NCBI RefSeq assembly: GCF_014207965.1
Contig: NZ_JACHLM010000002.1
Location: 124,001 to 188,000 of the forward strand
Direction: 5' to 3'
Source: Brevundimonas bullata
Lineage (GTDB): Bacteria > Pseudomonadota > Alphaproteobacteria > Caulobacterales > Caulobacteraceae
Length of the DNA: 64,000 nt
Of the stretch, positions 50,598 to 55,378 are shown piece by piece. Within the stretch, counting starts at the first letter, position 1, and the number at the start of each line of letters is the position of its first letter. Made by a program: the position numbers and the translations under genes. The notes under the pieces are model-generated. The model did not search any database, was not told the DNA's origin, and worked only from the letters and a program-made list of their open reading frames with translations.

Positions 50598-51515
50598 TTA
50601 GTGGCCCGAGGCGACGACCAGGTTGCGCTGGCGCGGCGGGATAGGCGGCACAGGCGGAGCCGGGGGCGTGCGGATGACGCGGATGCTGGCGCCGCCGCAC
50701 GAACGCACGGTCAGGCCGCTGGGCAGACGGGTCGCGCCGTCACCACAGGCGTCATGCACCTGATCCTGGGTCAGGCCGCGCGCACCCGACAGATCGGCGC
50801 CGCGAATGTCGGTCCGGTTCATTGAGGCGCCCGAGAAGTTGGCGCGGTCAAAACTGGCGCCGGTCAGGCGGGCGCTGTCCAGCGAGGCGTTGTTGAACTT
50901 GGCGCTGTCGAACACGCCGTTGGTCAGGTTGGAGGCGTTGATCTCGGCGTTGGAGAAATCGGCGCCGACAGCGCGGACATTGGCCAGGGTAGAGCCGAAC
51001 ATCTCGCTGCTGTTGAACCGGGTGCGGGTCAGGACGGCGCGGTTGAAGTTGGCCCCATTCAGCTCTGCCGAGGACAGATTGGCGTCCTGAAAATTCGTGC
51101 CAATCAGATTGGCGCCGGTGGCCTCGGCGCCGGTCAGATTGGCGCTGGCGAAGACGGCGTTGGTGAAGTTGGCGCCCATCATCTCGACGCCGCGCATGTC
51201 GGCGCGGCTGAAGTCGCTGCCGGCGAAGTTCGAGCCGAGCAACTCTGCCCCGCGCAAGGTGGCGCCGACCAGGGTGGCGTTGGTGAAGCTGGCGCCGGTG
51301 AAGGTGGCGCCCGACAGGTCGCGGCCGGACAGTTCGCAGCGATTGCAGCTGCCGCCCAGCGACACCATGCGCGCAACGTCGCGATCCTGCATCTGCGAGA
51401 GGTTCACCACCCCTGCGAAGGCGGGGGCGGCGACCAGCACGCCGGCGAGTCCGCCGGTAAGGGCGGCGGCGGCGGGGGCCAGGCGGCGGAGGAGGGCGAG
51501 CGGGCGTTTCATCAC
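50598..51515 (-). CDS. Secreted pentapeptide-repeat protein with CxxC, large copy
   Basis: A 305-residue exported protein. A signal peptide (about 1-34, ending APAFA) is followed by a CNRC motif (Cys57, Cys60) and about 35 A(D/N)LxX-type pentapeptide repeats to about residue 245, expected to fold as a right-handed quadrilateral helix. Next comes a conserved tail GLTQDQVHDACGDGATRLP with one or two cysteines, then a Pro-rich end. Function is unknown; the fold is shared with DNA-mimic and structural proteins. A smaller paralogue lies 62 bases upstream on the same strand. Confidence 0.88.
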   Translation of the reverse strand: MMKRPLALLRRLAPAAAALTGGLAGVLVAAPAFAGVVNLSQMQDRDVARMVSLGGSCNRCELSGRDLSGATFTGASFTNATLVGATLRGAELLGSNFAGSDFSRADMRGVEMMGANFTNAVFASANLTGAEATGANLIGTNFQDANLSSAELNGANFNRAVLTRTRFNSSEMFGSTLANVRAVGADFSNAEINASNLTNGVFDSAKFNNASLDSARLTGASFDRANFSGASMNRTDIRGADLSGARGLTQDQVHDACGDGATRLPSGLTVRSCGGASIRVIRTPPAPPVPPIPPRQRNLVVASGH

Positions 51516-51577
51516 GCTGTCTAGATGCGCCTGTCGCCTGAAAAACCCTACTTAAATCGTGGTAACGATGGCGACCT

Positions 51578-52069
51578 TCAGCAGGCCGGAATGCGCAGGC
51601 CTGACGGCAGGACGGTGGCGTCGTCGCCGCAGGCCTGATTGAGTTGGCTCTGGGTCAGGCCGACCGCGCGCGCCAGTCGGGCGCCCGACAGATTGGTCCC
51701 GTTGAGCTTGGCGCCGGACATGATCGATCCGTCCAGATAGGCGCCGACGAAGCTGGCGTTGGTCAGATCGGCGCCGGCGAAGTTCGAGCTGGAGAAGACG
51801 CCGCCGTAGGCCTCGACGTCGCGCATGTCGGCGCGCGAGAAGCGGGTGCGGTTCATGACGGCCAGGCTGAGGTCGGCCTGACGCAGGCGGGCGCCGGCCA
51901 GGTTGAGGCCGCGCACCTCCATGCCCGAGAAATCCCCCTGGAACAGGTTGCAGCCGGGGCAACTGGCGCCGCCGCGCACCCGGCTGATCTGCGAGGCGTT
52001 CTGGGCGACAGCCGGCAGGGCCGTAGCCGCGATCAGCGAGGCGACAAGTGCGATTGCGAGACGGTTCAT
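51578..52069 (-). CDS. Secreted pentapeptide-repeat protein with CxxC, small copy
   Basis: A 163-residue paralogue of the neighbouring protein. Signal peptide (1-22, ending PAVAQ), CPGC motif (Cys37, Cys40), about 15 pentapeptide repeats and the same tail pattern GLTQSQLNQACGDDATVLP ending in Cys163. The tail and CxxC are conserved between the copies while the repeat number differs, as expected after duplication and repeat-length change. Function is unknown. Confidence 0.88.
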   Translation of the reverse strand: MNRLAIALVASLIAATALPAVAQNASQISRVRGGASCPGCNLFQGDFSGMEVRGLNLAGARLRQADLSLAVMNRTRFSRADMRDVEAYGGVFSSSNFAGADLTNASFVGAYLDGSIMSGAKLNGTNLSGARLARAVGLTQSQLNQACGDDATVLPSGLRIPAC

Positions 52070-52126: not shown

Positions 52127-54769
52127 CTAGCCCTGCATCTGAGGCGCCGCACCGCAGGTGTCGCAAATCCAGCCGCCGCCGCGGTTTTGCAGGCTGAGAT
52201 CGCCACAGGCCGGACAGGCGACGGCTTCGGTCGGGGCGGCGTCGCGCGGCGTATCGGCCTTGCGCCCAAATGGGACGACGACGAGGTTGTCGGGGGCGGC
52301 CCCGCGCGCAAAGCCCTTGGAGATGAAGCGGGCGGCGGGCACCGGCTCGGCGTCATTGGTCGCTGTGCCCAGACCGTCGGGATTTCCCTCGGGCTCGGCG
52401 TTGGCCAACTCCTGACGCTCCAGATAGGAGACGCCCAGTTCGCGGAAGATATAGTCGAGGATCGAGGTCGCGGAGCGGATCGAATCATTGCCGGTGACGC
52501 GACCGGCGGGTTCAAATCGGGTGAAGACGAAGGCGTCGACGAACTCGTCCAGCGGCACGCCGTATTGCAGGCCGATCGAGATGGCGATGGCGAAGTTGTT
52601 CATCAGGCTGCGGAAGGCGGCGCCTTCCTTGTGCATGTCGATGAATATCTCGCCCAGCTCGCCGTCTTCGTATTCGCCGGTGTGGATATAGACCTTGTGG
52701 CCGCCGACGGCCGCCTTCTGGATATAGCCCTTGCGGCGGTCGGGCAGCTTGCGACGGGTGCGGTCGCGCTCGACGACCTTCTCGACCACCCGTTCGACCG
52801 GTCTGGTCTCGGGCTCCATGCGGCGCTGTACGGGGGCTTCGGTTTCGGTCAGGTCCAGCTGAAAGTCGGCTGGCGGCGCTGCGCGGTGCAGGACGACGGC
52901 GCGGCGACCATCGCGAGCGGCCTGGCCCAGGGCGCGGGCGCCCTGAAGCGAACCCGCGCGCCAGTCGATCACGTCCGGCGAGATGTCGGGCACATCGCTG
53001 AAGGGCTCGATGGCGCGGCGCAGGCCAGCCTCGAACGCAGCCGGGGGGCTGGACAGCAGGTGGTTCAGAGCCTCGGGCGCGGCGTTCCAGTCGGACAGGT
53101 CAGGATGGCCGAAGGCGACGGCGCGCGCGGCTTCGATAGCGGCGGCGTCGAAGCTCAGGCGGGGCAGCAGGTCCGCCCCGTTTTCGACCGTCAGACCCAG
53201 AACGTCGCCGACGAAGCCCGCGTCCAGCACGGGCGGCGCGAAGACGGCCGACAACCGGTCGGTCTGGCTCAGGGCGTCCTCGACGGCCTCAAGCTCGACA
53301 TCGGTGAAGCCCAGCTCGCGCAGGGCCGAATGGTTGACGCCCGGCGCGCCTATCAGGGTCCGGCGACCGAACAGGCGGCGCTCGGCGTCCTCGACGTCGC
53401 CCCCGGCGCGGGCGATGGCGCGGGCCAGGGCGGGGCGCAGTCGACGCTGCGTCTCGCCGTCCTCGGTCTGGAACAGGTCGGTGGCGGCGAAGGGGGAGGC
53501 GCCGAGGCGGAGTTCAAGCTCTGCATCGCGCACGAACAGGTTGATGGCGGCGTGACGGCGACCGTGGCGGGTCAAGGCCTCGGTGTCCTGACCGCGCTGG
53601 GCGGCAAGATCGGCGGCTTCATCCTTGACCACGTCCCATTCTGCGCAGGGGCCGAGGCGGGCGGCGAGCTCGCTGGACGTGGCGCTGGCGGCGACGGAGA
53701 CGCGGGCGCCGGCCGTCGCGGCGAGGGCGGTCGCCTTCCCGGCGTCCGTCGCCACGGTCCAGTCCGCCAGGCCGGACAGGCCCAGTGCGATTGGGCGAGC
53801 GGCGTCGCGACGGGGCGATGCGGGGGCGCTGGCGATTTCGATCTCCAGGGCGATGACCCAAAGCCGGGTCAGGTCGTCCAGGGCCTCATCGAAGCGGTCG
53901 CCGGTTAGGGCGGCGAGGGAAGGCAGGTGAAGCGCGGCGCGCGCTTCCAGCCCGGCGTCGGCCAGGGTTTCGGCGTCGTGCGGGGTGAAGATCAGCGCGA
54001 GATCGCCTTCCAGCGCGGCCTCGGCCACGGCCTGAGCTTCGGGACCACCCGAGGCGACGGCGTCGCGCTGGGCCAAGATGGGCTGAACCGAGCGCGTCGC
54101 CAGGCCAGGCAGTGCGATGGCCGGGCTTTCGCCCTCGGCGGCGTGTATGATGTCGGCGTCGGTCGCGCCGCAGCGGCGGGCGGTTAGGGCGGCGCGGGCC
54201 AAGGCCGGGTTGCGAGCAGGATCGGCGCAGGTCTCGCGCGGGCCTTCGCAGCGATCCACAGCGTCGGCGACGGCGCGAAGGGCGTCGGACAGGGCCTCGG
54301 CGGCGCGTTCAGCCAATCGTTCGCCGCGACGGGCGGCGGTCAGATCGGCCAGACGCCGCGCGGCGCCGGGCTCGCTGAGCGAAATGACGGGGGCAGACAG
54401 TCCGTGCTCGCTGGTAACGCTTGGCGCGGCGACGCCCAGCAGCAGCGAGGCCGACAGTTCGTCAGCGAAGGCGGCGGCGTCTTCGTCGGTTGTGAACAGA
54501 CCCTGCGCGCGGCCCCAGGCGGCGAGACGATGCGCCCAACGATCAGGGGCGCCGCCAAGCCAGGCACCGTGGTCTTCGTCCGGGGCGGCGGCGCCGTGCG
54601 GCAGGTCAGTCGGCAGGTCTTCGGCCCAGTCGAGCCAGGCCTCGACGCGGACGTCCGTCCAGTCGGCGGGGGCCAGGGTCGACGTCACTACGCCGGGGCG
54701 CTCGACCGCGCGAGGGTCGAGCACGACGAAGGCGGCGAGGTCGGCAAATCGGGGCTTGATGCGCATCAC
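52127..54769 (-). CDS. NrdJ-like protein with degenerate reductase core, TSCPD and zinc ribbon
   Basis: An 880-residue protein whose last 207 residues match vitamin B12-dependent ribonucleotide reductase Nrd[14 protein letters not shown] from 674, [58 protein letters not shown], then a zinc ribbon (Cys852, 855, 869, 872). Upstream, remnants of the barrel are visible ([11 protein letters not shown] at 300-310, [11 protein letters not shown] at 365-375, [10 protein letters not shown] at 471-480). Compared with remembered NrdJ sequences, the NPCSE catalytic-cysteine loop and its partner are missing and other parts are shortened. Internal cysteines are only at 174, 181, 200 and 375. It is probably not an active reductase. 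M2 (54766) is an alternative start. Confidence 0.8.
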
Positions 54770-54985: not shown

Positions 54986-55378
54986 GTGCTGAACAAGATT
55001 TTCGCTTGGTGGAACGGCGCCACGATCGGCACCCTGTTCACCGTGGCCCGCCGCGGCCAACTGGTCGGCACGGACGAGTTCGGCAACCGCTATTATCAGT
55101 CGCGCGACCACGTCAGCTATGACGGTCGTCAGCGCCGCTGGGTCATCTATGACGGCTATGCCGACGCCTCCAAGGTGCCGCCGGAATGGCAGGGCTGGAT
55201 GCGCTACACCTATGATGAAACGCCCGTCGAGAAGCCGCTGCCGCGGCGCTCGTGGGAGAAGGATCATTTGCCGAACCTGACCGGCACGCCGATGGCCTGG
55301 CGTCCGCAGGGCTCGCTGCTGAACGAGGGCAAGCGCCCGGCCGCCACTGGCGACTACCAGGCCTGGAGCCCGGAATGA
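54986..55378 (+). CDS. NADH:ubiquinone oxidoreductase NDUFA12-family subunit
   Basis: A 130-residue protein starting at a GTG (54986). It is the alphaproteobacterial counterpart of mitochondrial complex I subunit NDUFA12: the GTLFTVARRGQLVGTDEFGN and the NRYYQSRDH motifs, and the conserved WVIYDG and PPEWQGWMRYTYDETP segment, are present. The rest of complex I is not in the window. The stop overlaps the next start (ATGA), so it is coupled with the DUF2155 gene. Confidence 0.93.
   Translation: MLNKIFAWWNGATIGTLFTVARRGQLVGTDEFGNRYYQSRDHVSYDGRQRRWVIYDGYADASKVPPEWQGWMRYTYDETPVEKPLPRRSWEKDHLPNLTGTPMAWRPQGSLLNEGKRPAATGDYQAWSPE

Follow-up and report, generated by a model that had tools for sequence, protein, structure and literature searches.

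What is a ribonucleotide reductase (RNR) gene kept for once the residues needed for catalysis have gone from it? This question is raised by a reading frame of 880 aa in Brevundimonas bullata, located at 52127..54769 on the minus strand of the 64,000-nucleotide stretch that we analysed (contig NZ_JACHLM010000002.1; hereafter the window). An initial annotation, made from the sequence alone, had described the product as a probable pseudo-enzyme derived from the class II reductase NrdJ and kept by selection for a non-catalytic function, with regulation of a true reductase, DNA-related binding or scaffolding as candidate roles. Here we compare the gene with full-length NrdJ and with its relatives in the same order and class.

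Identity and domain organization of the reading frame

The frame starts with GTG, has ATG as its second codon, and was assigned with Pfam and NCBIfam profiles. The profile of alphaproteobacterial NrdJ (PRK07562/NF005736) matched in five stretches with 329.2 bits, below its cut-off of 1737. A score of 329 bits spread over five stretches indicates that the kinship with NrdJ is real. Among Pfam models, the RNR barrel scored 15.4 bits, short of its cut-off of 23.9, the class II N-terminal domain left only a sub-threshold trace, and the TSCPD domain (PF12637) was found at residues 687–778 with 42.2 bits, above its gathering cut-off of 22.8. A sequence search of the PDB returned 7b9p and 7b9q, the RNR of Rhodobacter sphaeroides, whose chains of 925 residues aligned here as far as residue 920 and do not include TSCPD. 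Given the sub-threshold barrel, the PRK07562 score below cut-off and the matches to 7b9p/7b9q, the protein is derived from NrdJ but far from a normal member.

The degenerate RNR core spans residues 2–634 (52868..54766, minus strand; model residues 1–633); an RNR fold is predicted for it and the catalytic residues are absent. Inside the core, a segment at residues 443–553 (53111..53443, minus strand) matched residues 711–825 of 7b9p (phmmer against the PDB), which we take to be the domain named 'HUG' in a 2022 structure paper. The most conserved module of the frame is a basic linker followed by the TSCPD domain (residues 662–786; 52412..52786, minus strand), with 13 K/R against 9 D/E in residues 656–705. 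The protein ends in a zinc ribbon with Cys852, Cys855, Cys869 and Cys872 (52154..52216, minus strand), from which both redox-shuttle cysteines are missing. The C-terminus had been called nearly textbook NrdJ, a description that needs one correction: its zinc ribbon carries four cysteines instead of six.

The expected contrast in length, 880 aa against about 1200, was borne out: 19 of 20 full-length members of the order had 1188–1256 aa, and the remaining one was a broken frame. In the window protein, 119 residues are missing from one barrel segment.

Loss of catalytic residues and retention of the zinc site

Residues were tabulated in a MAFFT alignment of 119 rows, consisting of 39 full-length rows with the NPCSE motif and 80 short rows without it, numbered after the full-length row L188; the block identities given below rest on this same alignment. 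The short rows comprised the query, 72 loci from genome handles and seven named loci, and they are not all independent, since some named loci may share an organism with a genome handle.

Cys202, Cys479 (in NPCSE) and Cys490 were present in 39/39 full-length rows and in 0/80 short rows. After the enzymes of L. leichmannii and T. maritima, we take Cys479 to be the thiyl-radical cysteine and Cys202 and Cys490 to be the active-site redox cysteines. In the NPCSE loop, the Asn, Cys and Glu, each found in 39/39 full-length rows, occurred in 1, 0 and 7 of the 80 short rows, respectively. The loop is thus absent, as had been proposed. The redox-shuttle cysteine pair of the C-terminus was found in 37/39 full-length rows and at neither position in any short row, while the four zinc cysteines were present in all 80 short rows and in 37/39 full-length rows. 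That the six C-terminal cysteines were seen in 37 and not 39 full-length rows is due to two rows with a broken or truncated C-terminus. The loss was therefore selective: the redox cysteines have gone from the short rows and the structural zinc site has stayed.

A similar division of roles has been described for Stackebrandtia nassauensis NrdJd (PMC5704485). There, Cys920/923/936/939 were proposed as zinc ligands, with mutant data directly fitting three of the four, and Cys933/945 were proposed as electron carriers. The window protein shares with that domain the C-terminal position and the four zinc-binding cysteines, but the Cys933/945 pair, needed for electron transfer in NrdJd, has no counterpart in 80/80 short rows.

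The second conserved cysteine of NrdJ had been placed opposite a Leu-His pair. AALHLPSL (residues 278–285; 53915..53938, minus strand) faces TACNLASL of true NrdJ, the preceding NPCSE loop being deleted, with a register that varies between alignments. In a 34-row alignment TACNLAS stood opposite AALHLPS, and in the 119-row alignment the query had Glu in that column; the exact register is uncertain, and neither alignment has a cysteine there. The absence of the cysteine thus stood, and its pairing with Leu-His did not become firm.

Could the protein still be a reductase, with its catalytic residues relocated? Two papers give the presumed Caulobacter homologue a matching name: C. crescentus CCNA_01966 is named NrdJ in a ribosome-profiling paper (PMC6538847), and a list of the RNAs that co-purify with GsrN enters it as a vitamin B12-dependent RNR (PMC5869019). 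Its label and the Caulobacter loci of this analysis are the grounds for presuming CCNA_01966 to be the orthologue of the window gene. No sequence support for relocation was seen, the known active-site and shuttle cysteines are gone from 80/80 rows, and the eight cysteines of the window protein are the four zinc ligands and those at 174, 181, 200 and 375. We regard a surviving reductase as scarcely credible. To judge by its sequence, the short form is almost certainly a pseudo-enzyme derived from a class II reductase.

Predicted structure

An AlphaFold2 model of the window protein (61 input rows, six of them full-length) had a mean pLDDT of 86.5, and the majority of its core blocks exceeded 90. 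It matched R. sphaeroides NrdJ with VIA Z 29.4 (7b9q; 571 aligned residues, rmsd 7.5) and 28.7 (612 aligned, rmsd 7.9), and T. maritima NrdJ with VIA Z 24.2 (417 aligned, rmsd 4.4). On these pLDDT values and VIA matches, the drifted core is still predicted to fold as an RNR. The model also matched the herpesvirus protein BORF2 in complex with APOBEC3B (7rw6; VIA Z 17.7, 361 aligned, rmsd 4.0), an example of an RNR large-subunit fold taking part in a complex that is not a reductase; besides 7rw6, the VIA matches include many working class I enzymes. The betaherpesvirus R1 protein is inactive. Herpesvirus R1 homologues are viral class I large subunits, whereas the gene studied here belongs to bacterial class II and was inherited in place.

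Modelled alone, the TSCPD domain had pLDDT blocks of 91–97 and matched no solved structure in the PDB at E ≤ 0.001. Its best VIA match, at Z 6.3 (76 aligned, rmsd 2.8), involved the C-terminal part of a lipoyltransferase, and IscU/SufE-type and PURA chains gave VIA Z of about 4; all of these matches are too weak to use. A YebC/TACO1 N-terminal domain (PF20772) was considered in NrdJ and rejected, as the best score among the relatives scanned was 24.6 bits against a cut-off of 36, and the window protein had no Pfam match to it at E ≤ 1. The segment in question lies at residues 299–372 of L094, 302–375 of L077 and 221–264 of L218, and at about 164–218 of the window protein; it is kept in many short rows and shortened in the f2 rows shown.

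Chromosomal position

Short and full-length genes share one chromosomal slot. The order is aspS, two pentapeptide-repeat-like ORFs, the gene itself, and then, divergently, NDUFA12-like, DUF2155-like, aat, accC, accB and aroQ, all of these neighbour names being putative. In the window, the downstream pentapeptide-repeat-like ORF lies at 51578..52069 and the second one at 50598..51515, both on the minus strand and both conserved neighbours named by reading the sequence. The divergent neighbour that marks the slot in the gene-neighbourhood comparison, presumably NDUFA12-like, lies at 54986..55378 on the plus strand. It was found at 68/72 short-form and 14/20 full-length loci, and two of the loci without it (L158, L172) are at a contig end. 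At most loci of the order, the pentapeptide-repeat-like pair (window 50598–52069) adjoins nrdJ, whether full-length or dead, and one of the two ORFs has an apparent signal peptide and Cys pairs. No NrdR box was matched in the window or at the nrdA locus of the same genome, a search that had no positive control, and an Rfam scan of window positions 48–60 kb gave no riboswitch and one chance-level match.

By predicted fold and orthologous chromosomal position, the gene is a class II RNR by descent. With NrdJd (PRK07562; 7b9p, 7b9q), the window protein shares the slot, the predicted fold, the HUG-like segment, the linker, the TSCPD domain and the four zinc cysteines; it differs in lacking NPCSE, the active-site redox cysteines, the redox-shuttle cysteines and the 119 barrel residues.

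Distribution in the order and the class I reductase

We surveyed 150 genomes of the order that were at least 95% complete, counting among the matches listed (at least about 109 bits). On this count, 106 genomes had the short form, 35 had full-length NrdJ, nine had neither and none had both. Seventy-three of the 106 short-form genomes were read (72 fetched and the window's own), and the other 33 were called short from the match alone. The control genome, Caulobacter vibrioides, matched the NrdJ search below the cut-off. The short form was spread over four of the order's family codes. Of the 61 nearest genomes, 52 matched the window protein. In eight genomes without the gene (seven of the nine and G015), no query match lay beside the NDUFA12-like gene (8/8), and a pentapeptide ORF was found next to that gene, within about 0.3 kb in seven and at 1.2 kb in the eighth.

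Several frames were broken. In three drafts of one genus, 82–90% complete, the short form was split between frames on one contig (L005 in G022, L031 in G029 and L030 in G034), by assembly error or decay. A full-length NrdJ, L187 in G106, had its C-terminal part in another frame (matches 1–1044 and 1043–1222, frames of 1117 and 194 aa), by frameshift or assembly error. The match in G126 counted one stop, and the frame read for this genome (L181) has an intact zinc ribbon at its end.

The genome of the window encodes a class I reductase, with NrdA (a 657-aa frame, PRK09102 1012 bits, with a terminal CxxC pair) and NrdB. This answered the check for a separate reductase that had been suggested at the outset. 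NrdB was matched in 149/150 genomes of the order; the exception has full-length NrdJ, and two matches (G044, G173) were weak or partial. The only ATP-cone of the window's genome lies in a 163-aa frame, outside NrdA and NrdB. A single ATP-cone match was found in 148/150 genomes, and a second one only in G178 (C17:161392-161658) and G165 (C91:28823-29086), in frames of 685 and 748 aa. In the nine genomes without the gene, ATP-cone matches were found only in frames of 155–193 aa, and a dATP sensor acting in trans is therefore not indispensable.

Number of losses in the order

A gene tree of the HUG and TSCPD parts (a quick tree, no bootstrap) placed all 80 short rows in one clade with SH-aLRT 100. 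A quick tree of the flanking genes accC, aspS and aat, covering 75/92 loci and 8/20 full-length ones with g4 missing, grouped g26, a full-length form, with f2 (98) and g30, likewise full-length, with the short forms of f4 (99), and with these two groupings it needs three changes. AU tests on HUG and TSCPD rejected neither g26 with f2 (p = 0.162) nor g30 with f4 (p = 0.065). With TSCPD alone, the best tree itself joined g30 to f4 (support 64), the grouping of g26 and f2 had AU p = 0.194, and a single clade of all short rows had AU p = 0.848. The deletion edges differ by family. These data are compatible with a single loss of catalysis, before the carrier families diversified, or with as many as three losses among these families.

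Selection on the core and the tail

Identity was calculated in 40-residue core blocks for 16 short and 16 full-length rows of the order, each set drawn at random. Among the short forms, the core blocks had identities of 0.17–0.42, and the linker/TSCPD blocks had identities of 0.73, 0.94 and 0.83, compared with 0.84, 0.93 and 0.80 in the full-length sample. We estimated dN/dS by the Nei–Gojobori method in 28 short-form pairs, some of which share sequences, and found values below 1 in 28/28. The TSCPD domain had dN/dS of 0–0.18 (at most 0.09 in 26/28 pairs), the HUG-like segment 0.04–0.32 and the core 0.07–0.44. The highest core value, from the pair of the query and L005, is unreliable, as L005 is a frame broken part-way. 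The zinc ribbon ranged over 0–0.64, with few sites and 0.64 in one pair (L114/L024). Five full-length pairs gave 0.03–0.08 for TSCPD, 0.05–0.16 for the HUG-like segment, 0.07–0.18 for the core and 0.08–0.11 for the zinc ribbon. Set against these pairs, relaxation in the short forms affects the core and not the TSCPD domain. The linker and TSCPD module is very probably the main selected part of the protein in the window's order. Low dS in several Caulobacteraceae pairs raised the idea of unusual synonymous constraint in TSCPD, which we rejected: codon identity at conserved residues in f1 was 0.650, similar to the values for two neighbouring genes, accC (0.692) and aspS (0.688).

A pseudogene on its way out would account for the 119 missing barrel residues, for a core that has drifted to 17–42% identity per block and for the relatives without the gene. 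The gene split between frames in G022, G029 and G034 points the same way and made us raise our estimate for decay slightly. This explanation is largely contradicted by the dN/dS values below 1 in all 28 pairs, and the confident predicted fold and the zinc cysteines in 80/80 rows also speak against it; we consider it very improbable. With its catalytic residues lost, and purifying selection and a predicted fold kept, the protein is, if the model holds, a conserved pseudo-enzyme. The initial proposal of a pseudo-enzyme under selection was thus supported by all three checks it had suggested: the catalytic residues are gone from the aligned short rows, a separate reductase is present, and the clade is conserved across four family codes under purifying selection.

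Dead forms outside the order

Matches over the NrdJ cut-off were found in 115 of 193 genomes drawn from the whole class (three from the window's order among them), and no match was found in 19. In this draw, the match in G248 had no tail and that in G341 was split between contigs. Thirteen genomes outside the order, chosen for having only partial or weak matches, were fetched and their frames read. None of these frames had NPCSE. NrdB was found in 11 of the 13 genomes and not found in G335 and G344. As full-length NrdJ is common in the class, losses of catalysis across it probably happened independently.

TSCPD was kept in eight of the 13 genomes, from six family codes (L206–L212 and L214). 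L209 and L210 are frames of 565 and 530 aa with TSCPD. Three of the TSCPD-keeping forms (f76, f11) are stop-to-stop frames of 278–301 aa in the nrdJ slot, from which the core has gone: L206 (301 aa) keeps the four zinc cysteines, and L207 and L208 (280 and 278 aa) have no zinc ribbon. L207 and L208 come from two genera, and their identity was 87% in TSCPD and 64% overall; each occupies the interval from the NDUFA12-like gene to aspS, an nrdJ slot reduced to the tail. In the other five genomes (L215–L219; f80, f90, f95), the opposite of the window's pattern was found, with a dead core kept and TSCPD lost or eroded, which means that TSCPD is not always the retained part.

These last forms bear on whether the dead barrel, rather than the tail, could be the selected part, as a structural scaffold or cofactor binder. 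The predicted RNR fold, the f80, f90 and f95 cores without an intact TSCPD, and core dN/dS values that are also below 1 fit that idea. In the window's order, however, the core evolves much faster than TSCPD, and f76 and f11 keep the tail with the core gone. We judge selection on the barrel to be improbable.

Possible functions of the retained tail

The protein is probably kept for a second job, since its catalytic residues have been lost while one end has hardly changed. Besides shuttling electrons, the C-terminal module would have served a second function, and this module would be what selection mainly preserves. S. nassauensis NrdJd is reported to need its C-terminal region both to form tetramers and hexamers in response to dATP/dGTP and to bind effectors tightly (PMC5704485). 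Freed of catalysis, the tail may act in trans as a nucleotide-responsive oligomerizing partner, most plausibly of the class I NrdAB, which has no ATP-cone in the window's genome. Such a partner of NrdAB is the leading mechanism because the NrdJd tail is needed for both oligomers and effector affinity. By this analogy, an action of the protein on RNR or on dNTP supply is conceivable, and we put it forward tentatively.

A job outside RNR and dNTP control, in which the basic linker and TSCPD would bind nucleic acid, the ribosome or another protein, is an equal rival of the NrdAB partner and just as tentative. The TSCPD-only genes of f76 (278–280 aa) lack the zinc ribbon and any RNR core that they could regulate in cis, the linker is basic, and several NrdJ contain the sub-threshold YebC/TACO1-N-like segment. 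Yet no specific fold match was found for TSCPD, and the YebC-like segment scored at most 24.6 bits against the cut-off of 36 and is shortened in the f2 rows shown. The C-terminal domain of NrdJd, moreover, is known for oligomerization and electron transfer (PMC5704485).

A bolder version of the NrdAB-partner mechanism would make the TSCPD/zinc tail of alphaproteobacterial NrdJ an autonomous dNTP-responsive regulator, acting in trans on a cone-less class I enzyme. Once NrdAB supplied the dNTPs, evolution would repeatedly remove the catalytic part and keep the sensor, at the extreme leaving the old slot with a single gene of about 270 aa. We regard this as unlikely; the dead forms without TSCPD, and the lineages without both the gene and a cone, count against the tail mechanism. 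A parallel is the split NrdJa/NrdJb of Pseudomonas (PMC5704485), where the C-terminal domain also has its own gene, as in the TSCPD-only L206–L208. Pseudomonas also encodes the catalytic NrdJa, but no full-length NrdJ was found in G186, G332 and G251.

On balance, the best explanation as a whole is that the gene is the lineage's nrdJ in its original place, dead in catalysis, with the C-terminal module kept for a second function. We found no report of a bacterial pseudo-RNR in the open-access literature, a scope beyond which most subscription papers lie, and the available part of PMC8365446 held nothing on dead NrdJ forms. The presumed Caulobacter homologue is labelled a reductase, yet the sequences of this clade indicate that it cannot be one by the known mechanism. 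A tail kept without catalysis opens a direct test of what the C-terminal domain of class II enzymes does besides passing electrons, and Caulobacter crescentus offers a genetic system for this question.
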